35,210 bases of DNA. Source: a virus. Positions 12,122 to 26,372 of the stretch are shown piece by piece. The notes beneath the pieces are model-generated. The model did no database searches and had not been told where the DNA came from. It saw only the letters and a program-made list of their open reading frames with translations. The stretch is taken from IMG/VR virus record IMGVR_UViG_3300032316_000671, positions 1 to 35,210 of that record, one strand, 5' to 3'. Positions within the stretch are counted from its first letter, which is position 1, and every line of letters begins with the position of its first letter. A program made the position numbers and the translations under genes.

Positions 12122-12897
12122 TGGCTGAGGTCTACAAGATCAACGGCGTCAACGTGAGCGACCTGCTGAGCTCTGTCCAGGTCCTCGATGGGTGGACCGC
12201 CGTGCCTCCCATGCGTCAATCGGACACTCCAGTCCCTGGCCGTGTCGGGGATGCCGCGACGAATCCTTGGCCCGGGGCGCGCCCGGCGTCCGTCGGTGGA
12301 CTCATCGCCGGATCCTCCCGGGCAGCGACACTGACCAAACTCCGGCGCTTCATGTCCGTGGCGTACAACGGCGGAAAGCCCATGACGCTCAGTAAGACAC
12401 TGCCCCTGACTGCTACCTCAGACTTCACGGCCACCACCACGGCCCGCTACACCGGAGGCCTGGACTCCTACTCAGAGATTGCGGGCAACGTCTGCCGAGC
12501 AATTGCGGAATTCTCCATACTTGAGGCCTACTGGTACGGCGTTGACCTGATCGATCCCGGCGTCAAGTCAGAGGCGACGTTCAGCATTGACGCGATAGGC
12601 GAGGTGCCCACCCATAAGGTCCTCGTCACCTTCAGTGGCAGCAGCTCCACTCAGCGGCTGACCAACGCCACCACCGGCGACTGGGTCCAGTTTGCTGCAA
12701 CTACGGCAGTCACGCCAGCCGTGCTCGATGTCGCAAACTTCACGGCCCTGCAAGGCGCCACCAACGCCATCCAGCACGTCACCTCTGGCGACACCAACGC
12801 CTCCTACTACTGGATGACAGTTGCTCCCGGCATAAATACCTTCACGCTGACCGGAGGCGGCTCCGTGCGCGTGGCGTATCGGGCGGCCTACCTATGA
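12121..12897 (+). CDS. Distal tail (Dit-like) minor tail protein
   Basis: About 258 residues from ATG 12121 (TGATG with the tape measure; a GTG one codon earlier is less likely). The N-terminal half (VYKINGVNVSDLLSSVQVLD, then GRVGDAATN and a LTKLRRFMSVAYNGGKPMTL region) fits the barrel of Dit-type proteins, and the second half is a beta domain. Dit forms the hub between tube and tail tip. The assignment depends on position and general pattern. Confidence 0.72.
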   Translation: MAEVYKINGVNVSDLLSSVQVLDGWTAVPPMRQSDTPVPGRVGDAATNPWPGARPASVGGLIAGSSRAATLTKLRRFMSVAYNGGKPMTLSKTLPLTATSDFTATTTARYTGGLDSYSEIAGNVCRAIAEFSILEAYWYGVDLIDPGVKSEATFSIDAIGEVPTHKVLVTFSGSSSTQRLTNATTGDWVQFAATTAVTPAVLDVANFTALQGATNAIQHVTSGDTNASYYWMTVAPGINTFTLTGGGSVRVAYRAAYL

Positions 12898-14705
12898 CCA
12901 GCGGCCTGGAGTATCGGGTCTACAACGCCACGGGGACCACCCTCACCGGGTATGTCACACGGGGCTCGGATAAGGAATTCGTCGACAGCCTGAACGAGCC
13001 CGGCTACGGTCAGGTTGTCGTCCCGCTAGGCAGCCCCGACGCCGCACTCCTGGTCCGCGATGCACTGGTCCGCGTCTTCTACAACTCTCAGTGCGTCTTC
13101 GCCTGGTCCGTGGAGTCGCGCGACGACACAATCGTGGACTCCTCCGGGACACGCTTCCTGCGGGCAGCGGGACGCTCGCCGCTGGCCTGGCTGGAGGACG
13201 CGCTCGTCTGGCCCCAGGCCGGGCTCCAGTCGTACAACAGCCCGGACCGACCCTTCAACTACGCATCGAAGGACGGCTACTGGAAGTCCACGGTCACGTG
13301 GTCGGCACCGCTCGCGGCGGACTGGTCCGAGACGACGACGGCCCGCTCCAAGCAGCCCCGCAAATGGGACAACGTAGACCGGCAGGCCAAATGGATCTGG
13401 TCCACGAGCCCCATCGCTTCAGTGCAAGAGGGCACCGTGAACTGGTTCCGTTCCACGTTCACCGTCTCCGAGCCGACCACCATCCGCATCTTCTGCTCCG
13501 CAGACAACGCCGTCGACCTCGCTCTGGATGGAGCGACGGTCATCACGGCGTCGGACTTCGACGCATCTACACCCACGTGGACGCAGTTTGTGCGCTTCAC
13601 TGCCCGGGTCGGCGCCGGCGAGCATGTCCTCGGGGCGCGAGTACGCAACGGGAAGCCGTGGAGAGCGGAGGACCTGTCCGTCTCCAACGACGACAACAAG
13701 GTCAGGGCCAGCGATCACGGACTCACGGCGGGTACACGTGTGGAGGTGCTTCGCCGCTCCAAGCCTAACGGGCTCACCGTCGGCAATGTGTACTTCCTGC
13801 GGGATGTCACCCCGGACGACTTCAAACTCGCAGCGACGTCCGGAGGCTCCGCCGTCAACATCACCGCCGACTCCGAGATTGACCTCGAGGTCAAGCGCGA
13901 CAACCTCGCGGGCCTGCTCGTGTCGGTGCGCCGCATGGAGGACGGAAAGCCCACGACAGTCCTGCGCCGCACGGATACCGCGAATTGGGAAGTGGCGACC
14001 GAGGAGCCCAAGCACCGCCCGGCCCTCATCCTGAAGACTCTCCTGCAGGAAGCCCAGGCCCGCGACGTGTACCGCCTAGATGCGGTGGGCACCGACTTCA
14101 CTAACTCTGCCGACTCTGGGGCCGGGGCGTGGACGACGGAAGTGGACCTATCCATTCCCGTCGGCACGACTCTGCTCGCAGTCATGGATCAGATGGTGGA
14201 TCTGGGAGTGGACTTTCACGTCGACCCCGTGAGCCTGGTCCTGAAGTCCTGGGAGTCCCGGGGTATGGATCGGTCTACATCGGTCCGGCTCATGCCCGGA
14301 CTGAATCTGCTCTCCTACTCGGTCGCCTCCGATCCGCGCGTGAAGACGTCCGCCCTCGTGCGCACCAAAGACGGATGGACTCAGAAACCGAACGTCAATG
14401 CCGAGACCTGGGGGCGGCGGGAACTGTACGTGGAGGTGGGCCGGACCCGCTCCGAGTCCACCGCCCGCATCATCGCGGAGCGCATCCTGCGCAGGACTGG
14501 CAAGCAGTTGCTCGTGGCCTCGAAGTCCGACGCCACGCCCGTGCCGGGCGCCGACCCGTACACCGACTTCGCCGTAGGCGACGTGATCTCGGTGCCGAGC
14601 AGTTCCGGCACGTCATGGACTCGCGCGCGCGTCCTGTCCATCTCCATGAAAGACGAAGACGGGACCGCTACCTACACCCCGGAGCTGGAGGTGCTCGATG
14701 CCTGA
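12894..14705 (+). CDS. Baseplate hub / tail-associated minor tail protein
   Basis: A 603-residue protein of the ReqiPepy6-gp37-like hub group. The N-terminal part (residues 1-130) and the C-terminal part (AVGDVISVPSSSGTSWTRAR region) form the gp27-like hub. An inserted jelly-roll-like, probably sugar-binding domain lies at about residues 160-265 (KWIWSTSP ... GEHVLGARVRNG). After it comes a short Tudor-like beta module at about 275-330 (DHGLTAGTRVEVL, VYFLRDVTPDDFKLA). No protease or muralytic motif was seen. ATG overlaps Dit by 4 bases. Confidence 0.75.
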   Translation: MTSGLEYRVYNATGTTLTGYVTRGSDKEFVDSLNEPGYGQVVVPLGSPDAALLVRDALVRVFYNSQCVFAWSVESRDDTIVDSSGTRFLRAAGRSPLAWLEDALVWPQAGLQSYNSPDRPFNYASKDGYWKSTVTWSAPLAADWSETTTARSKQPRKWDNVDRQAKWIWSTSPIASVQEGTVNWFRSTFTVSEPTTIRIFCSADNAVDLALDGATVITASDFDASTPTWTQFVRFTARVGAGEHVLGARVRNGKPWRAEDLSVSNDDNKVRASDHGLTAGTRVEVLRRSKPNGLTVGNVYFLRDVTPDDFKLAATSGGSAVNITADSEIDLEVKRDNLAGLLVSVRRMEDGKPTTVLRRTDTANWEVATEEPKHRPALILKTLLQEAQARDVYRLDAVGTDFTNSADSGAGAWTTEVDLSIPVGTTLLAVMDQMVDLGVDFHVDPVSLVLKSWESRGMDRSTSVRLMPGLNLLSYSVASDPRVKTSALVRTKDGWTQKPNVNAETWGRRELYVEVGRTRSESTARIIAERILRRTGKQLLVASKSDATPVPGADPYTDFAVGDVISVPSSSGTSWTRARVLSISMKDEDGTATYTPELEVLDA

Positions 14706-16356
14706 CGGCGAACTCCGGCGTCCGCCCCGACTCGAAGGCCAGCAGCTCCTCGCACGCATCCAGGCCAGCACGGCGCTGGGGGCCTTGGGCTCTTCGGTCG
14801 CGTCAGTTGTGCCCCCAGAGCCGACGCCGACGCCCGACGGCACCGGATCGGATCAGGCGCCCCCGTTCTACGCCGACCTGACCACGACGACGCCGACGGG
14901 CCCCAACGTTGCTCAGGTCATCGCCGGCCTCGCCATCACGTGGTCGGCGACAGATACGGCAGGCAACCCGTACCCGGCCGGCGTCTTCGCGGAGATCCAC
15001 ATCTCAAGCACCACCGGCTTCACCCCCGACGCGAGCACACTCAAGGGAACCCTGTCTCGCGCCGGCACGTTCACCGTCACCGGCCTCACCGCCGGCACCG
15101 GCTACTACGTGCGCCTGGTTATCGTCGACGAAGCCGGCCAGCGCGTCACCTCCTCCCAGGTGGGCCCGACCACGGCCGGCTTCGTGACTACTACCGCCAT
15201 CGGCGTCGGCACCATCACCGAAGACTTGGTCTCCTTCGACGCGACCGCGATCGGCGGCATCCAGCAGTACGTCGGCACCGGCACCCCACCGACGACAGGC
15301 GCCACCGGCTCCACCTGGGTGAACACGGGGGATGGGTCCTACAACGTCCTGCAACTGGTCTCCGGTGTGAAGACCTGGGTCAAGCAGCAATGGGCCGGTG
15401 GCGGCATCGCCGCCGACTCCATCAGCACCCTGCAGCTCGCTGCCGGCGCCGTGACTGCCGAGAACATCCTGGCTCAGGCGATCACGACGAAACTGGTGAA
15501 CGGCGAGGTAATCCGCACCTCCACCGATGACACGGGCGCCCGAGTCCGCCTCACCGCCGTCGATGGCATCGAGGTCTACTCCTCCACGGAGCGCGTCTTC
15601 CACGCCAAGCCCGACGGCACGGTCACGGTCAAGGGCGCTATCACCTCAGGGTCGACGATCACCGGGGCGACCTTGACCGGCTCGAAGTTTCAAACCCGGG
15701 GAAGCGGCGCGCGCCTTGAGATCAGCAATGACGCCTCGTTCTCAGATGCTCTGGTCTGGTACAACTCCAGCAACGGCGTCGTGGCTGTCATTCAACAACT
15801 TTTCGACTACCTGTACGTCAATGCCCCACTCATTGGGGGAGCCAGATTCGAAGCGGCCTCCTTTAGCACTTCCGGAAACATGTCAAGCGGGTCGCTTACC
15901 GTGTCGGGCGCCAACGTTGACATGCAAGGCGTCTACGACAACAACACCACCGGCCTTGCTCCTGTCGGTATCACGACAACGGGGCGCCTGCGCCGTAACG
16001 GCACATCTTCACAGACGATCAAGTATGACATCGCGACCCTTTCGGGTGGCCTGTCTGCAAGCGTTGATGAGGCACGGCAGTGCGACGTCGCCACCTCAGA
16101 CCCTGCCGCGATCCTTGACGTCGGCGTCGTGGAGTTTTCAGTCATCGACGAGGGCCTGCCCACCGAGCGTCGCTTGCTCGGCTTCATCGCGGACGACGTA
16201 GCGGACAAGCTGCCCATTGCCGTGCTTCGAGATGCCGAGGGCGCTCCCGCCGGCGTCATCGACCAGGCCATGGTCGCCGCCCTGCTCTCAGTCGTCCAAC
16301 AGCAACAGCAGACCATCGCCGACCTCACCACCCGCATAGAAGCCCTGGAGGCCTGA
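14698..16356 (+). CDS. Tail fibre with FN3-like domain and S74 self-cleaving chaperone domain
   Basis: A 552-residue fibre. After a Pro/Thr linker, residues 60-165 look like a fibronectin type III domain. A beta-helix-like fibre shaft follows (repeated TSGSTITGATLTGSKF-type strands). Residues 430-552 are the intramolecular chaperone (peptidase S74): SSQTIKYDI holds the Ser437/Lys442 dyad with the S-x4-K spacing of endosialidase chaperones. GFIADDV and a C-terminal coiled coil (QQQQQTIADLTTRIEALEA) complete the domain. The trimer folds, then the chaperone cuts itself off just before the Ser. Confidence 0.82.
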   Translation: MPDGELRRPPRLEGQQLLARIQASTALGALGSSVASVVPPEPTPTPDGTGSDQAPPFYADLTTTTPTGPNVAQVIAGLAITWSATDTAGNPYPAGVFAEIHISSTTGFTPDASTLKGTLSRAGTFTVTGLTAGTGYYVRLVIVDEAGQRVTSSQVGPTTAGFVTTTAIGVGTITEDLVSFDATAIGGIQQYVGTGTPPTTGATGSTWVNTGDGSYNVLQLVSGVKTWVKQQWAGGGIAADSISTLQLAAGAVTAENILAQAITTKLVNGEVIRTSTDDTGARVRLTAVDGIEVYSSTERVFHAKPDGTVTVKGAITSGSTITGATLTGSKFQTRGSGARLEISNDASFSDALVWYNSSNGVVAVIQQLFDYLYVNAPLIGGARFEAASFSTSGNMSSGSLTVSGANVDMQGVYDNNTTGLAPVGITTTGRLRRNGTSSQTIKYDIATLSGGLSASVDEARQCDVATSDPAAILDVGVVEFSVIDEGLPTERRLLGFIADDVADKLPIAVLRDAEGAPAGVIDQAMVAALLSVVQQQQQTIADLTTRIEALEA

Positions 16357-18062
16357 TGGCTATCCCCGCCAACCTCGACACGGTGACCGTGTCGGGCACG
16401 TACATCACCGCCGACGGCTCCCTGGCCACCGGCACTGTGTCCTTCACCCCCACCGTGTGGCTGCGCGACGACACCGGCGACGTCGTCGTCCCCCAGTTGC
16501 CCGTCGTCGCCACCCTCGTCAACGGCGAGTTCACGGTCGAGCTCATCGCCACCGACGACACCGACGTCGACCAGAACTGGGCCTACGTCGTCACCGAGAC
16601 GATCAACGGGGCCACCACCTCCAAGACCGTGCTCCTGCCGGCGACCTCTCCGACCGTGGACATGGCCGAACTAGAGCCGGTCATCGACCCCACCCAGTAC
16701 TCCGACATCCGCGGCCCCCGTGGCTACAGCGTCCTGTCCGGGACGACGGCCCCGTCTGCGGGCACAGGTGAGGACGGGGACCACTACTACGACCGGGTCG
16801 CAAAGGTCATGTACGGGCCGAAGGCCGCTGGAGCCTGGGGCTCGGGTACGAGCCTCGCGGGCCCGGCTGGTCCGGCTGGCTCTCCCGGAACCGCGGCCAC
16901 CGTCACCGTCGGCGCGGTCACCACGGGAGCTGCTGGCTCGTCCGCTGCCGTCTCGAACTCCGGAACCTCCACCGCAGCCACGTTGAACTTCACGATTCCG
17001 CGCGGAGACACGGGCGCGACCGGTTCCCCAGGGGCCGCAGCCACCGTAGCGGTGGGCACCGTCACGACGGGCGCGCCAGGATCATCGGCAGCCGTCGTCA
17101 ACTCCGGCACCGCGAACGCCGCTGTCCTCGACTTCACGATCCCCGAGGGGGACACGGGAGCAACTGGTCCCCCTGGCGCCGACGGGGCAGATGGCCTGGG
17201 CTTCGATGGGATCACGTCGGCGTCCTCAGTTGCGATCGGCACGGGCTCCAAGTCGTTCACCGTGAACAAGGTCGGGGCACTGGCCGTCGGCACCCGTGTC
17301 CGGGTCGCCTCGTCCTCGAGCCCAGCGAACTACGTGGAAGGCCCCATAACCGCGATCGCGTCCCTGAACGTGACCGTGAACGTCGACAACGTCGGCGGCT
17401 CCGGCACCATCTCCTCCTGGAACGTCACGGTCGCCGGCGACAAGGGCGCCAAGGGCGACACCGGCGATCTCGGCACGCTGACCGGGACCGCTCCGGTCAC
17501 CTACTCCTCCGGCACGATCGGCCTGTCCGTCGGCGCCGGCCTGACGACCTCGAGCGGCGCCCTGGTCCCCGACTTCGGCACGACCTCCGGCAAGGTCGCT
17601 CAGGGCAATGACTCACGCTTTACGGACGCGCGCACCCCGACGGCACACAAGTCCAGCCACGCAACCGGCGGCTCTGATGCGTTGAGCCCCGCAGATATCG
17701 GGGCGGTCTCCACGTCGGACTCGCGTCTGACGGATTCCCGTACTCCGACCGCCCACAAGGCATCCCATGCGACGGGTGGAACCGACGCCCTCACGCCTGC
17801 CGACATCGGCGCTGTCGCTAATGCCCTAGTCGGCGTCGCCAATGGGGTCGCCTCGCTGGACTCCTCAGGCCAGGTCCCCGCTTCTCAGTTGGGCAATGCC
17901 TCGGGCGCGAAGGCCGGCGGTGTCATCTATGAGAACGGGCAGACGATCGCGGCCAACTACTCGATCACTTCCGGAGCAAATGCTGTCAGCGCCGGACCCA
18001 TCACGATCGGCACCGGAATTTCGGTGACGGTTCCTACCGGCTCCTCGTGGGCCATCGTCTAA
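16356..18062 (+). CDS. Collagen-like tail fibre protein
   Basis: A 568-residue fibre. A beta N-domain (residues 1-110) would hold it to the tail. Two Gly-X-Y stretches (GPAGPAGSPG near 168 and GDTGATGPPGADGADG near 268) are joined by two repeats of an AATVTVGAVTTGAAGSSAAV-type module. A later pair of near-copies (DSRTPTAHKASHATGG and relatives, about 424-485) ends in ADIGAV. The end is a short beta tip. ATG overlaps the S74 fibre stop (TGATG). It may be the shaft on which the following DGR target protein is displayed (inference). Confidence 0.8.
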   Translation: MAIPANLDTVTVSGTYITADGSLATGTVSFTPTVWLRDDTGDVVVPQLPVVATLVNGEFTVELIATDDTDVDQNWAYVVTETINGATTSKTVLLPATSPTVDMAELEPVIDPTQYSDIRGPRGYSVLSGTTAPSAGTGEDGDHYYDRVAKVMYGPKAAGAWGSGTSLAGPAGPAGSPGTAATVTVGAVTTGAAGSSAAVSNSGTSTAATLNFTIPRGDTGATGSPGAAATVAVGTVTTGAPGSSAAVVNSGTANAAVLDFTIPEGDTGATGPPGADGADGLGFDGITSASSVAIGTGSKSFTVNKVGALAVGTRVRVASSSSPANYVEGPITAIASLNVTVNVDNVGGSGTISSWNVTVAGDKGAKGDTGDLGTLTGTAPVTYSSGTIGLSVGAGLTTSSGALVPDFGTTSGKVAQGNDSRFTDARTPTAHKSSHATGGSDALSPADIGAVSTSDSRLTDSRTPTAHKASHATGGTDALTPADIGAVANALVGVANGVASLDSSGQVPASQLGNASGAKAGGVIYENGQTIAANYSITSGANAVSAGPITIGTGISVTVPTGSSWAIV

Positions 18063-18071
18063 GGGAGACAC

Positions 18072-19193
18072 ATGAGCACTCTTCGTGTTGGAGCGATCCG
18101 GCATCCGTCCGCCTCGGTCGACAACATGGTCTTGAACTCCGACGGCACGGTCACCCTTCAAGGGGGTGGGGGAGCGGGTATGCCCCACGCCCTGTTCAAG
18201 ACCGACTTCCTGTCCTGCTGCTTGACGCGCACCGGCAATGGCACCGTGTCCATCAAGGCGGGCACGAAGGTGCTGGTCGGGACTGCGGTGGTGGACTTCG
18301 CCACAGCGACAGCGGTCACGATGCCGTCGCTCACCGCAGGCACGGACTACTTCGTGTACGCGCTGTCGAATGGCACTGCTCAGGCGGTGGCCGCGTCGGG
18401 CACGTGGCCCACGCCGGTGGCGTCTCCGCCGGCAAACTCGCAGCTGATCGGCGGTTTCCACTACGCCCCGGGCGGCAATGCCACAGCACGCGCGGGCGGC
18501 AACACGACGGCCCAGATCAACGAGTTCTCCCTGTGGGACCTGAAGTTCCGCCCGGCCAGCGATGATCCTCGCGGCATGGCCCTGGTGGCGAATGCGTTCT
18601 GGGCTGACATCTACCTGACGAATCGTGATCCGCAGACCAACGGCACCTCGAGGAACAACATCGCGATCGCCGACGGTGAGACCGGTGGCACGACCACCCC
18701 GATTATCCCGACTCTGTTCGGTGGTAACGGCTCCAGCCGCTACTCCACGTTCAACTGGTGGAATGCGACGGAGACCTTGGCGGCGTTCGGTAAGCGACCC
18801 CCGACGTATTCGGAGTTCGCTGCCCTGGCGTTCGGGGCGACGGAGGCTGTCTCGCGCGGTAACGACCCGGTGAACACGGGCCTGGGCACCGCGAACTCTG
18901 GCACGTCCCAGACCGATGACAAGTTCACGTCGAAGTGGGGCATCATCCAGGCGACTGGCTGCCTGTGGGTGTGGGGCGCGGACTTCGGTGGCGGTGCCGC
19001 TGCCGCGTCCTGGGCAGCGAACACGGAGTCGCGTGGTTCGACGTACCAGATGGAAAACGTCGCGATCTTCGGCGGGGCCTGGTTTGAGTCCGCGAACTCC
19101 GGTTCGCGGGCGTCCAACTGGGGCAACTCCCCGCCGGTCTCGGGCAACTACCTCGGGGCCCGCGGCGTCTGTGACCACCTGCGCCTTGTCTAG
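18072..19193 (+). CDS. DGR target: tail receptor-binding protein with C-type-lectin-like domain
   Basis: A 373-residue protein. The N-terminus (MSTLRVGAIRHPSAS ... LNSDGTVTLQGGG) is a tail-attachment motif. Residues 150-373 look like a C-type lectin/FGE-like fold (FNWWNATETLAAFGKRPPTY, GCLWVWGADFGGG, GARGVCD) as used by Mtd and other DGR targets. Residues 330-371 are coded by the variable repeat. Compared with the template, residues 336, 338, 351, 355, 356, 358, 360, 361, 369 and 370 are changed, and 339 and 371 are hit silently. They should form the exposed binding surface. Good ribosome site AAGGGAGA; the only gene between the fibres and the avd/RT block. Confidence 0.92.
   Translation: MSTLRVGAIRHPSASVDNMVLNSDGTVTLQGGGGAGMPHALFKTDFLSCCLTRTGNGTVSIKAGTKVLVGTAVVDFATATAVTMPSLTAGTDYFVYALSNGTAQAVAASGTWPTPVASPPANSQLIGGFHYAPGGNATARAGGNTTAQINEFSLWDLKFRPASDDPRGMALVANAFWADIYLTNRDPQTNGTSRNNIAIADGETGGTTTPIIPTLFGGNGSSRYSTFNWWNATETLAAFGKRPPTYSEFAALAFGATEAVSRGNDPVNTGLGTANSGTSQTDDKFTSKWGIIQATGCLWVWGADFGGGAAAASWAANTESRGSTYQMENVAIFGGAWFESANSGSRASNWGNSPPVSGNYLGARGVCDHLRLV
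19058..19183 (+). repeat. DGR variable repeat (VR)
   Basis: A 126-base block that aligns without gaps to the template at 19754-19879 (offset 696). There are 18 differences, every one at a template adenine (for example 19773/4, 19779/80, 19818/9, 19839/40 and 19875/6 of the template). All 95 non-adenine positions are identical. The 3' part contains a GC-rich, unchanged run of 23 bases (19153-19175), the probable initiation-of-homing segment. The four changed template adenines after it (19872, 19875, 19876, 19878) could be mutagenesis or fixed VR/TR differences. Confidence 0.97.
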
Positions 19194-19210
19194 GCTCGCG
19201 TCAGCGAGCC
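19193..19210 (+). promoter_or_regulatory. Hairpin/cruciform just downstream of VR
   Basis: GGCTCGC (19193-19199) and GCGAGCC (19204-19210) form a perfect 7-bp stem around GTCA. It starts on the last base of the target stop codon. In Bordetella phage BPP-1 a short GC-rich stem with a 4-base loop in the same place helps the retroelement recognise its target. No T-run follows, so a terminator is less likely. Confidence 0.72.
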
Positions 19211-19228
19211 GTCCACAAGGGGGGAGCC

Positions 19229-19381
19229 ATGGCCCGACTCAGTCACTTGGTCACACCCGAGGAAGCCATCGACATCCTGGCCTCCGCGCTGATGTCCCTG
19301 CCCGGAGGCATTGATGCCCTCGAGGCAGCCCTCGCCGCCCACGAAACCTCCCCGAAAGCGGGGGGGGGGGGTGACAGGTGA
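19229..19381 (+). CDS. Small protein upstream of avd, related to the one at 21080
   Basis: A 50-residue protein with a strong ribosome site (GGGGGGAG). Its core (AIDILASALMSLPGG, then DALEAALAAH) matches the core of the protein at 21080-21226 (VDILAAAIQELPGG, then AALEAAADAA). The last codons lie in a run of 12 G (19360-19371), and its stop overlaps the avd start region. Function unknown; small helical proteins of this kind often follow tail-fibre genes. Confidence 0.68.
   Translation: MARLSHLVTPEEAIDILASALMSLPGGIDALEAALAAHETSPKAGGGGDR
19360..19371 (+). repeat. Run of 12 G just before avd
   Basis: An unbroken poly-G stretch followed by two copies of GTGACAG (19371-19384). The avd GTG start at 19378 is inside the second copy. 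The G-run lies where the avd ribosome site should be and inside the end of the upstream small gene. Its length is also the base call most likely to be wrong here. Confidence 0.85.
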
Positions 19382-19746
19382 CAGGTGTCAACGAGCAACT
19401 CCTCATCGTGCAGAAGTACGAGACCTTCCTGCACTACATGTACCCGATCGCGCAAAACCTGCCCCGCAAGCACGGGGTCGCCAAGGAGATGCTCATCCGG
19501 GACATGCTGGCCCAGGTCGACCTGTTCATCGTGGCCGGAAAGACCAGGCAGGTCAGCCGGCTTCAGCAGGCTGACGCCGGGATCGCCATGCTGCGGTTCT
19601 GGCTCCGGTTCCTGTCCGGGCCCGCCTGCGACGTCCTCACCGAGCAGCAGCACCGAACCGGCTCCATCATGCTGGCCGAGGTCGGTAAGATCCTCGGAGC
19701 CTGGATCACGAACCACAAGAGCAAGGCCGATCCAGGCAGGGTGTGA
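19378..19746 (+). CDS. avd: DGR accessory variability determinant (Avd), four-helix bundle
   Basis: A 122-residue, basic, all-helical protein (LLIVQKYETFLHYMYPIAQN, PRKHGVAKEMLIRDML, LQQADAGIAMLRFWLRFL and a last helix ending in ITNHK). This is the Avd pattern. Avd forms a pentamer that binds the reverse transcriptase and the template RNA and is needed for mutagenic cDNA synthesis. GTG start at 19378 is the first possible one, since a stop lies two codons upstream in the same frame. Order target-avd-TR-RT is the classic DGR order. Confidence 0.9.
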   Translation: MTGVNEQLLIVQKYETFLHYMYPIAQNLPRKHGVAKEMLIRDMLAQVDLFIVAGKTRQVSRLQQADAGIAMLRFWLRFLSGPACDVLTEQQHRTGSIMLAEVGKILGAWITNHKSKADPGRV

Positions 19747-19898
19747 ACGGGATCGTCGCGATCTTCGGCGGGAACTGGAATGAATCCGCGAACTCCGGTT
19801 CGCGGGCGTCCAACTGGAACAACTCCCCGACGAACTCGAACAACAACATCGGGGCCCGCGGCGTCTGTGACAACAAGAGGTTTCACGCTCTGCGCTAG
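19743..19898 (+). other. Open frame across TR in the target-protein frame
   Basis: A GTG at 19743 overlaps the avd stop as GTGA, and the frame stays open through TR to TAG at 19896-19898 (51 residues). It reads as a lectin-domain end with Asn in most variable positions and a different C-terminus (KRFHALR). It is probably the remains of the target gene from which TR arose. Translation is possible but not shown. Confidence 0.4.
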
Positions 19899-20036
19899 GT
19901 GACTACGCAGGCCGACCACAGGTGGTCAGCCGATCACGCCCGCTTCGGCGAATACATTGCAGGGGTCGGCCATAGGGGGGAGTAGGGGAAACCTGAAACC
20001 CCCAGGCCGCGCCCCCTCACCCGGCAGAGTTGCCCC
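19747..20036 (+). ncRNA. DGR template RNA region (TR plus spacer to the RT gene)
   Basis: There is no good gene in the 290 bases between avd and the reverse transcriptase. The TR fills 19754-19879. The remaining 157 bases are the spacer that in studied DGRs is part of the same RNA and primes cDNA synthesis. It contains a short dyad (GACCAC/GTGGTC at 19914-19927). The exact RNA ends cannot be seen; in known systems it also overlaps the end of avd and the start of the RT gene. Confidence 0.7.
19754..19879 (+). repeat. DGR template repeat (TR)
   Basis: The unmutated copy of the VR. It holds 31 adenines, 22 of them in 11 AAC/AAT codons when read in the target frame. This is the usual DGR design, since changing A in AAY gives many amino acids and no stop codon. 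18 of the 31 adenines differ in the VR. Homology to the VR starts at 19754 and ends at 19879; the first non-adenine mismatch is at 19880. Confidence 0.97.
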
Positions 20037-21083
20037 ATGGGTCGCAAGTACAAGCACCTGTTCGAACGCATCATCCACCCGGATAACCTCCGCCGCGCCT
20101 ACGCCAACGCTGCCCGCGGCAAAACCAACTCCCACGGGTACCTCATCTTCCGGGAGCACTACGAGGCCCGGCTGGCATCCCTGCACCGGCAGCTCCGCGA
20201 GGGGACCTGGCAGTCCAGCCCCTACCGCGAGTTCACCGTCTACGAACCCAAGCGCCGAAACATCAGCGCCCCACCCTTCAGCGACCGGGTAGTCCACCAT
20301 GCCGTCGTCCAGGTCATCGAACCAATCTTCGACGCCACGTTCCTCCCGACGTCCTTCGCATGCAGGGACGGCAAAGGGACTCACGCCGGCGTGAAGTGGG
20401 TGCAATCCCAACTGCGGTCCCGTGGCTACTCGCAGTACCTGAAAACGGACTTCAGGTCCTTCTTCCCCAGCGTCGACCGCCAGGTGCTGCACGAGCAGTA
20501 CGCCCGCAAGATCAGCTGCCGTCCCACGTTGGACCTGCTGGCCCGCATCATCCCGCCGCAAGGCCAAGGCATCCCCATCGGAGCCCTCACCAGCCAACTG
20601 TCTGCCAACATCTACGCCAACCCTCTAGACCACTACCTCCACCACGAACTCAAGGTCCCCTTCGCCCGCTACATGGACGACATCGTCGTGCTCGGGACCC
20701 GCGACGGGCACCTCAAAGAGGTTAAGGAAGCGGTCTCGGAGTTCGCCGCTAACCGGCTGCATCTGGAGATCTCCCGCTGGAACATCTCCGCCACCACCCA
20801 GGGCATCAACTTCTTGGGCTACCGGATCTGGTCCACCCACAAACTGCTCCGCAAGAGTTCCGTTACCCGCGCCAAGAGGAAGATCCGCGCCTACTCCCAC
20901 GATGGGGACACCGAGGCACTGCGAGCGTTCCTGGCGTCCTGGCGGGGCCACGCTGCCTGGGCAGACACGCACCACCTCCACGCCTGGCTAGAAGAGCGCT
21001 ACATGCTGTCGGACGTGCCCACCCGACCTGCCCGACCCACACGGCAAGACCTGCTAATCGATCTCCTAGGAGGAGAATCATGA
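20037..21083 (+). CDS. DGR reverse transcriptase
   Basis: A 348-residue group-II-intron-like reverse transcriptase. The fingers and palm are clear: YLKTDFRSFFPSVD (motif A, Asp138), IGALTSQ (181-187) and RYMDD (211-215), then GINFLGYRIW (256-265). The IGxxxSQ form in place of QGxxxSP is the mark of DGR enzymes, which misincorporate at template adenines. No maturase or endonuclease domain follows. It works with Avd and the TR RNA; the cDNA then replaces VR. ATG 20037; stop overlaps the next gene (ATGA). Confidence 0.96.
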   Translation: MGRKYKHLFERIIHPDNLRRAYANAARGKTNSHGYLIFREHYEARLASLHRQLREGTWQSSPYREFTVYEPKRRNISAPPFSDRVVHHAVVQVIEPIFDATFLPTSFACRDGKGTHAGVKWVQSQLRSRGYSQYLKTDFRSFFPSVDRQVLHEQYARKISCRPTLDLLARIIPPQGQGIPIGALTSQLSANIYANPLDHYLHHELKVPFARYMDDIVVLGTRDGHLKEVKEAVSEFAANRLHLEISRWNISATTQGINFLGYRIWSTHKLLRKSSVTRAKRKIRAYSHDGDTEALRAFLASWRGHAAWADTHHLHAWLEERYMLSDVPTRPARPTRQDLLIDLLGGES

Positions 21084-21226
21084 AGATCAGTGAGCAGTTC
21101 CCGCAGAACATGAGCGTGGACATCCTCGCCGCCGCCATCCAGGAACTCCCCGGAGGCGCCGCCGCACTCGAGGCAGCCGCTGACGCGGCCGTCGTCGCCG
21201 CCCTCGAGGAGGCCCCGAATGCTTGA
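21080..21226 (+). CDS. Small protein downstream of the RT, related to the one at 19229
   Basis: A 48-residue, acidic, Ala-rich helical protein with a strong ribosome site (AGGAGGAG at 21069-21076). Its core LPGGAAALEAAADAA matches LPGGIDALEAALAAH in the protein at 19229. The DGR avd-TR-RT block lies exactly between these two genes, which hints at a duplication or insertion. It overlaps the next gene (start 21219). Function unknown. Confidence 0.72.
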   Translation: MKISEQFPQNMSVDILAAAIQELPGGAAALEAAADAAVVAALEEAPNA

Positions 21227-24816: not shown

Positions 24817-25632
24817 CTAGGCGACCGCGCTCACCGCCCGCGCGAGCGCGTCGGTATCCACCAGCACGTACCGCTGGGTGGTCTCCACGCTGGCGTGCCC
24901 GAGCAGCTGCTGCACGCTCCGCAGGTCCCCGGTGCCCCGGTAGGCGCTGGTGGCGAAGTAGTGCCGCAACGAATGCGCCGTCCACGGCGACGGCACGACG
25001 GCCTCCACCCGCGAGGCGATGTAATCCGGCGACACGTGCTGCCCCGCGCGCACCGGCGACGGGAACGCCCAGCCCTGGAGGGCCTGCAGCCGGGTCCGCA
25101 GCCGCGGATGCAACGGGACGAGGCGCACCCGGCCACCCTTGCCGTGCACAAGCAGCCCGTCGTCGGTGACGTCATCACCGTGCACCCGGGCGATCTCCGA
25201 ACGGCGCAACCCCGCGAGGGCCGCGAGGTCGATGATGAGCAGCGTCTCGGCATCGGCGGCTGCGCGCGCCTGCTCGAGGGCCGCTGCTGGGATCGGCTTG
25301 GGCTGGCCCTTGGGCACGGTCACCGTGGGCAGCTCCTCGCTGAGGTCGACCGCGGCGTGCCCACGCCGGTGCGCCCAGCGGAAGAAGGACCGCAGCGCCA
25401 CCACGGTGGACTTGCGGGCCTCAGGCGACAGGTGCGCGCGGCTGGCGAGGTAGGCGTGCAGCTGCTCGGGCGTGCAGGTGAGCAGGTCCAGGTGCGCGGC
25501 GGCGATGACCACGTAGGTCTTGCGCGCGGCGACGGTGAACGGGCTACGCCCGGCGGCGCGGTAGGTGTCGAGCCACTGCTCGATCAGGGTCTCCATGTCT
25601 TTCCCCCGGAGGTCGGGGCCGACGGCGCTCAT
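24817..25632 (-). CDS. int: Tyrosine integrase
   Basis: About 271 residues from the ATG at 25632, whose ATGA overlaps the repressor stop; an ATG at 25596 (METLIEQW, with a GGGGGA ribosome site) is possible too. The SAM-like N-domain covers residues 14-95. All catalytic residues are present: Arg143 (GLRRSE), Lys165 (HGKGGR), His220/Arg223 (HSLRHYF), His246 (LLGHAS) and Tyr255 (QRYV). It inserts the phage at a host tRNA gene through the attP at 25676-25717. It lies behind the repressor in the same operon, so integration cuts it off from its promoter. The C-terminus is RAVSAVA. Confidence 0.93.
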   Translation of the reverse strand: MSAVGPDLRGKDMETLIEQWLDTYRAAGRSPFTVAARKTYVVIAAAHLDLLTCTPEQLHAYLASRAHLSPEARKSTVVALRSFFRWAHRRGHAAVDLSEELPTVTVPKGQPKPIPAAALEQARAAADAETLLIIDLAALAGLRRSEIARVHGDDVTDDGLLVHGKGGRVRLVPLHPRLRTRLQALQGWAFPSPVRAGQHVSPDYIASRVEAVVPSPWTAHSLRHYFATSAYRGTGDLRSVQQLLGHASVETTQRYVLVDTDALARAVSAVA

Positions 25633-25991
25633 GCCGCCAACCTGAGACCAGCAGTCTCTCCTGCCCATCGGGCCACTCGTGACCCAGAGGTCGGAGGTTC
25701 AAATCCTCCCCCCGCTACGCGCAGGAAGCCCGGTCCCGGATCATCGGGGCCGGGCTCTCCCGTTCGTAGCCACCCCTCATCGACGCCGGTTTCGTAGGCC
25801 CACGCGCGGAGCACCAGGCCCTTCGGCGCGGTGACGTCGCGCTCGTAGGCGCTGATCGATCCGCGGCTGATCTCCAGCAGGTCGGCAAGGTCACCCTGTT
25901 CCATGCCACAACTCTCGCGGGCTAGGCGAAGGCGCCAGCCCAGGGACATGCTCGGAATCCGTCGGCGTGGGCCGTATGTCTGGGTGCTCAT
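25629..25991 (-). CDS. Immunity repressor with attP inside its 3' end
   Basis: A 120-residue protein. Residues 17-80 are an XRE/Cro-type HTH (MEQGDLADLLEISRGSISAY as the recognition part). A Pro/Gly-rich link (EPGPDDPGPGF) follows. Residues 92-106 are coded by the tRNA-like attP core read backwards. The last 14 residues (ARWAGETAGLRLAA) come from phage DNA beyond the core and end in LAA, like ssrA degradation tags. After integration these codons would be replaced by host sequence. It probably represses the rightward early promoter; a dyad lies 2 bases before its ATG. ATG 25991 has no clear ribosome site, so a leaderless or near-leaderless mRNA is likely. Confidence 0.83.
   Translation of the reverse strand: MSTQTYGPRRRIPSMSLGWRLRLARESCGMEQGDLADLLEISRGSISAYERDVTAPKGLVLRAWAYETGVDEGWLRTGEPGPDDPGPGFLRVAGGGFEPPTSGSRVARWAGETAGLRLAA
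25676..25717 (+). other. attP core: copy of a tRNA 3' half
   Basis: Read on the + strand, this is a tRNA from anticodon loop to discriminator: CTCGTGA (loop, anticodon position CGT, so Thr if standard), CCCAG, AGGTC, GGAGG-TTCAAAT-CCTCC (T arm), CCCCGCT and A. The left half of a tRNA is missing, and the bases to the left do not pair with the CCCAG arm. Phages that integrate in tRNA genes carry just such a part so that the gene is restored. It lies 43 bp from the integrase start and inside the repressor gene. Confidence 0.87.
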
Positions 25992-26081
25992 GTGGGCAAG
26001 TTTGCCCCTGCGGGGAACCTTTTGCAACACACCGCGCGAAGTCATTGACCGGTCAGACTTGCGTGTGCAAGTCTCTGCACC
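25992..26081. promoter_or_regulatory. Divergent control region with operator-like dyads
   Basis: A 90-bp gap between the repressor (left) and the first early gene (right). Dyads: GGGCAA-GT-TTGCCC (25994-26007), CCCC-TGC-GGGG (26005-26015), TGACC-GGTCA (26046-26055) and AGACTTGC-GTGT-GCAAGTCT (26055-26074). The first lies just before the repressor start and the last just before the rightward gene; both hold GCAAGT. TTGACC (26045-26050) may be a rightward -35 box, but no good -10 box follows. Confidence 0.72.
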
Positions 26082-26267
26082 ATGCAGGAATTCGTGACCA
26101 CGGCTGAGGCCGCGCTCATCCTGGGGAAGTCCGTGACCACGGTCAACCGGCTGACTGCCGCCGGTCAGCTGACCCCTAGCCACAAGCTCCCCGGCAAGAC
26201 CGGCGCCTACCTGTTCAACCGCGCCGACATCGAGGCCGCCGCCGGCGACAAGGCCAGCGCCGCCTAA
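26082..26267 (+). CDS. Small HTH protein: Cro- or excisionase-like
   Basis: A 61-residue protein of the HTH_17/MerR-like excisionase group: VTTAEAALILGKSVTTVNRL (helix-turn-helix), then the wing with LPGKTGAYLFNRADIEAAA. It is the first rightward gene, facing the repressor, which is where cro or xis lies. No ribosome site is visible before the ATG at 26082, as for the repressor. Whether it shuts off the repressor, directs excision or both cannot be told. Confidence 0.82.
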   Translation: MQEFVTTAEAALILGKSVTTVNRLTAAGQLTPSHKLPGKTGAYLFNRADIEAAAGDKASAA

Positions 26268-26278
26268 CCCCCTAGACC

Positions 26279-26372
26279 CCCGGCTCCTCCGGATCGCCGG
26301 GTGCCCCGCCACGGGCGACAACTGAATAGGCCCCTCCCATCGGGCGTTGCAGCGCAACCGGTGGGAGGGGCC
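26279..26372 (+). terminator. Two hairpins after the first early gene (attenuator-like)
   Basis: The first is CCCGGC (26279-26284) with GCCGGG (26296-26301). The second is much stronger: GGCCCCTCCCATCGG (26329-26343) with CCGGTGGGAGGGGCC (26358-26372), 15 pairs including one G-U, and an inner 5-bp stem (GTTGC/GCAAC). No T-run follows. It could limit early transcription or be an antitermination point. The 146-base gap holds no gene. Confidence 0.5.

Follow-up and report, generated by a model that had tools for sequence, protein, structure and literature searches.

A complete BPP-1-type diversity-generating retroelement, apparently in recent use, in a temperate actinobacterial siphophage

The question raised by this locus is whether two closely similar repeats beside a reverse transcriptase (RT) gene belong to a complete diversity-generating retroelement (DGR) that still varies the tip of a phage tail. 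The window, i.e. the whole stretch of DNA analysed, is the linear virus record IMGVR_UViG_3300032316_000671 of 35,210 bases, which may be a fragment. An earlier note had proposed a complete BPP-1-type cassette in this DNA, and the features on which it relied are all present, namely the IGALTSQ and YMDD motifs and the open reading frames 18072-19193, 19378-19746 and 20037-21083. That proposal stands, as the target, Avd, RT, TR/VR, IMH, hairpin and spacer RNA were each identified. Parts absent from the earlier list are the hairpin (19193-19210), the Phage_DGR RNA (19887-20010) and two small ORFs (19229-19381 and 21080-21226). Very probably, the locus is a complete DGR of the BPP-1 type that has been used recently and belongs to a temperate siphophage with an actinobacterial host.

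VR (19058-19183) and TR (19754-19879) align without gaps over 126 bases with 18 differences, all of which fall on the 31 TR adenines, as had been described. A search of the whole record (35,210 bases) gave no second VR or TR, leaving one of each. The placement of the 18 differences on TR adenines is correct, but four of them (19176, 19179, 19180 and 19182) lie inside the IMH and thus outside the mutagenised stretch; these are coincidental TR adenines, because they face a fixed IMH that is not rewritten. The VR proper spans 19058..19175 (plus strand), where 14/26 template adenines are changed and none of the 92 non-adenines (P = 1.9e-11, with differences placed at random as the null). The part of TR copied into it is 19754..19871 (plus strand). 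A similar correction applies to the 11 AAC/AAT codons reported for TR, ten of which are mutable, while the last AAC (19176) lies outside the mutagenised sequence. When adenine changes are counted from a single VR/TR pair, TR adenines that face the IMH therefore inflate the total. No TR codon that contains A can become a stop codon by adenine change, and the adenine change at 19088 is synonymous (GAA to GAG).

The gene that carries VR (18072..19193, plus strand) encodes an Mtd-like tail-tip protein of 373 aa, identified through Pfam, PHROG and the Mtd structures, with a C-terminal C-type-lectin variable domain and an N-terminal stretch of about 35 aa that is unlike Mtd. The protein matches Pfam mtd_2nd (E 1.3e-20), falls in phrog_11262 (tail, E 1e-110) and has the Mtd crystal structures 1yu0-1yu4 as its best solved relatives (E down to 1e-101). 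It is thus a C-type-lectin target of the Mtd family, and apart from the first ~35 residues it is 53% identical to BPP-1 Mtd. No origin was found for the N-terminus, which gave only weak matches (E of at least 0.3) to cyanophage tail fibres. Mutable codons of BPP-1 are also mutable in the window at the aligned residues in 11/12 cases, and the window has four more, including one at the border of the IMH. Tail-tip diversification by the cassette is supported, because the target is homologous to Mtd and the variable codons coincide, and we infer that the target binds a host receptor. It is improbable that an active DGR instead varies a surface-exposed virion protein with no part in receptor binding. 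Host binding is also conceivable for the three long tail genes (12894-18062) that lie upstream, and the first ~35 residues depart from Mtd, but the homologous Mtd is annotated as the receptor-binding protein of BPP-1, its mutable codons are shared, and in the position of this gene, the 3' end of the tail operon, the sister contig L118 has an alternative tail-tip-like protein. A match named 'Escherichia phage T7' (L164, LR745708.1) is a laboratory T7 whose tail fibre carries the annotation of a BPP-1 Mtd fusion, and is not a natural relative.

The site at which a new VR would be installed is marked by the IMH (19155..19188, plus strand), which consists of a G+C-rich core and, after it, the fixed tail TGTGACCACCTGCGCCTTG. 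Across ~95 related loci the end of VR is nearly constant, being TGTGACCACCTGnnnCTTG or a close form, and the TRs of these loci continue after TGTGA with unrelated sequence that is without the VR tail. BPP-1 has GACCACCTG at the end of VR and not in TR, and the same GACCACCTG occurs in the window IMH. Among pairs of loci with (nearly) identical TRs and different VRs, the IMH tail is invariant in nearly all, the exceptions being L026/L050 (5/23 positions) and L010-L012 (1-3 positions). Since the VR tail is constant across relatives and does not vary in same-TR pairs, it is the IMH and is not rewritten; it lies at the 3' end of VR and differs from the IMH* of TR.

Behind VR lies a target-site hairpin or cruciform (19193..19210, plus strand) with a 7-bp stem (GGCTCGC/GCGAGCC) and the loop GTCA. 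As in BPP-1, the hairpin begins on the final base of the stop codon, and its offset from TGTGA is the same. Folded as DNA it reaches a z of -4.3, and 0/200 shuffled sequences were equally stable. The G+C-rich stem is at the bottom of the 7-10 bp range, and the 4-nt loop departs at position 2 from GRNA, the consensus for hairpin loops, in which the loop sequence matters for homing (Guo et al., PMC3240598). In BPP-1, exchange of the loop GAAA for CTTT drops homing to near background (PMC3240598). With a loop off the consensus and this loop-swap result, the homing efficiency in the window phage is uncertain. Perfect stems of at least 6 bp are found behind VR in 49/95 relatives, compared to 94/1900 shuffled sequences. 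In six loci (L010, L011, L012, L014, L024 and L026) VR is followed by GCGAGCG-NN-AGCGAGCG, a near direct repeat with no perfect inverted repeat; a hairpin with tandem G-A mismatches is conceivable at these sites and could form there.

The earlier note had suggested a search for further VR variants, and in the relatives such variants are found: where loci have the same TR, nearly all differences between their VRs fall on TR adenines. With pairs of identical VRs set aside, each pair with (nearly) identical TRs has 10-27 differences at adenines and 0-3 elsewhere. Examples are L070/L074 (27/36 adenines vs 1/82 other bases), L028/L033 (18/27 vs 1/90) and, from the RT clade of the window itself, L008/L009 (13/28 adenines, 2/90 other bases and 0/24 IMH-tail positions). 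In the window, the absence of differences at the 92 non-adenines together with the synonymous change at 19088 indicates that the last homing event was probably recent. The window DGR thus appears to have been active recently, as judged from its open frames, the adenine-only VR/TR differences up to the IMH tail and the VR-divergent relatives. A genuine DGR that has since become a silent fossil with old adenine edits, its homing perhaps blocked by the atypical loop, is very improbable. The loop GTCA is off the GRNA consensus, and in BPP-1 homing is almost lost when the loop is altered (PMC3240598), but all three ORFs are open, 0/92 non-adenines differ, one adenine edit is synonymous (GAA to GAG), and L008 and L009, which are without a perfect 6-bp stem behind VR, have nevertheless diverged in VR on identical TRs. 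Several bacterial genomes among the relatives (L092, L094, L100 and L107) carry at least two VRs per TR, i.e. more than one target site.

The remaining parts of the cassette also agree with a DGR. The accessory gene avd (19378..19746, plus strand) encodes what had been described as an Avd-like helical protein, and this protein is Avd, as it matches bAvd PF22296 (E 5.9e-30), phrog_3206 (Avd) and the structures 4dwl and 8ub7_B, and is 55% identical to BPP-1 Avd. Between TR and the RT gene lies the spacer RNA (Phage_DGR, Rfam RF03022; 19887..20010, plus strand), a full-length match of 88 bits with a cut-off of 50, which includes the conserved block GGTGGTCAGCCG common to the window and BPP-1. Two other Rfam-type leads in the region were below the cut-off and were dismissed as chance. 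The RT (20037..21083, plus strand) matches RVT_1 (E 1.6e-19) and phrog_1423 (E 1e-115), and its best phage match is BPP-1 Brt (50.6% identity). It is of the DGR class by phrog_1423, by the bRT structure 8ub7 (E 2.8e-105) and by the tree, in which it adjoins the BPP-1 group. Its score is 355 bits with the bRT structure 8ub7 and 88 bits with the best group II intron RT. In the RT tree the window and L003-L012 form one clade (support 100/99) apart from the BPP-1/proteobacterial group, and when the aligned clade was used for a further RT scan, no RT relatives closer than these ten came up. One related locus (L013) has a second RT-related stretch (15248-16087, minus strand, 31% identity) about 6 kb from its DGR RT. 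That VR and TR arose by plain duplication and A-rich divergence, with an RT that belongs to a retron or group II intron, has a negligible chance of being correct given the adenine-only differences (P = 1.9e-11), the 50.6% identity to Brt, the 355 vs 88 bits, and the presence of Avd and the Phage_DGR RNA.

For the preferred reading, a BPP-1-type DGR in recent use, the steps can be taken over from the established BPP-1 system (PMC12875486, PMC3240598) and would apply to the window phage as follows. A transcript of avd, TR and spacer would be bound through the spacer by RT and Avd, and the RT would copy TR while misreading adenines. Guided to the IMH and the hairpin that follows, the cDNA would then take the place of VR in the 18072-19193 gene. 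In a single event, about ten freely variable residues and a few more limited ones could change on the lectin-like surface of the tail tip with no stop codon created, and some of the progeny could then bind altered host receptors.

The genome around the cassette bears out the phage type that had been assigned to it. A tape measure, Dit, a Gp37-like protein and a major tail protein mark a siphophage. The actinobacterial host follows from the terminase kin, which are mostly actinobacteriophages: the best matches of the large subunit are Arthrobacter phages, and among 1659 terminase records those of Mycobacterium, Gordonia, Microbacterium and Arthrobacter phages are most frequent. At the DNA level, matches are to Microbacterium and Arthrobacter phages. 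Scans of plus-strand ORFs had found no lysogeny genes, but a phage devoid of them was rejected when a six-frame search located a lysogeny module on the minus strand. This module consists of a tyrosine integrase (24817-25668, domain 24859-25263) and an HTH repressor (25629-26357, domain 25767-25931), and the phage is accordingly temperate. Both genes run opposite to the other genes. The sister contig L118 shares with the window a block of genes that runs from the tape measure up to the 16356 gene (30-49% identity), as well as the 21637 gene. In the slot of the cassette, L118 has a Gly-rich, tail-tip-like protein and other genes, and no DGR. Because L118 carries other genes in the same slot, the DGR may be regarded as an exchangeable tail-tip module in the 3'-terminal position of an actinophage tail operon.

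Two small ORFs flank avd and the RT gene. The first (19229..19381, plus strand) encodes an acidic, helical protein of 50 aa and its stop overlaps the avd start (GTGA); the second (21080..21226, plus strand) encodes a paralogue of 48 aa and its start overlaps the RT stop (ATGA). Because of this start-stop coupling, the small ORFs are probably made together with avd and RT. The AF2 model of small ORF 1, which is too small for an informative fold search, has helices at residues 4-7, 10-23 and 27-40 (mean pLDDT 79, pTM 0.50). A family profile finds the small ORF in each of the ten closest RT relatives, L003-L012, and in no further DGR locus among those examined. The seed of this profile was without L004, L005, L007 and L011; of these, L007 is a repeat of L006, and L011 closely resembles L010. 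The ten contigs represent about five or six independent lineages. The gene lies before avd in L003-L007 and L010-L012, after RT in L008 and L009, and at both positions in the window. It has no match in PHROG and no tblastn match in the phage collection. Viral-contig scans with a 3-row alignment and single proteins gave the small ORF only in contigs already known as DGR carriers, and those with the two window copies gave no match. A third DGR protein of this actinobacterial-phage lineage, made from the shared transcript and acting on the RT-Avd-RNA complex, is a tentative and rather unlikely reading; as a guess, it might tune that complex or adapt it to the host. An equally good explanation of the small ORF would be a small gene of the tail, or a passenger, that rides along with the module by chance. 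Small ORF 1 also contains a run of 12 G (19360-19371) that ends 7 bases before the avd start, and slippage there would shift the small ORF 1 stop relative to the avd start. The run, which had suggested a phase switch, is absent from the relatives looked at.

Taken together, a full BPP-1-type cassette including its target occurs in a phage with terminase kin in Arthrobacter, Microbacterium and Mycobacterium phages, which shows how far this module, with tail tip and mutator as a unit, has moved between phage lineages. The clade of the window and L003-L012 is where an additional DGR protein should be sought. An RT search of a phage collection of 50,697 records gave 144 records with a match, and among those listed (the 40 best and a spread of 60) there were none from phages of Arthrobacter, Microbacterium, Mycobacterium or Gordonia.

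DGRs fall in six clades, three of which are mainly found in phages (Roux et al., PMC8144416), and among known systems the window is closest to BPP-1 (mtd-avd-TR-brt). Gene order and strand agree, identities are 53% (target), 55% (Avd) and 50% (RT), and both have the IMH tail GACCACCTG, the hairpin offset, the spacer RNA family and 11/12 mutable codons. The two differ in the host, which is Bordetella for BPP-1 and an actinobacterium for the window phage, in the N-terminal ~35 aa of the target, in the small ORFs that the window has beside avd and RT, in the hairpin loop (GTCA vs GAAA) and in the VR-TR offset (696 vs 556 bases). L003-L012, which are uncultured virus contigs (IMG/VR), share the RT clade and all carry the small ORF, while their RTs are 52-59% identical to that of the window. 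A terminase search of the relatives' records gave no match, which carries no information because these records are mostly short fragments. The tape measure of L012 is nearest to those of Microbacterium phages, and that of L007 is like that of Pontimonas phage phiPsal1, among others. A DGR in a phage of this host phylum is already known from Eggerthella lenta, whose prophage DGRs have avd, TR/VR and an mtd-like gene and show VR change in culture (PMC8778435). Those prophages belong to gut Coriobacteriia and are likened to the window by their description. By every testable feature except the hairpin loop, the window holds a BPP-1-type DGR, and what is new here is the kind of phage that carries it and the small ORF confined to its clade.
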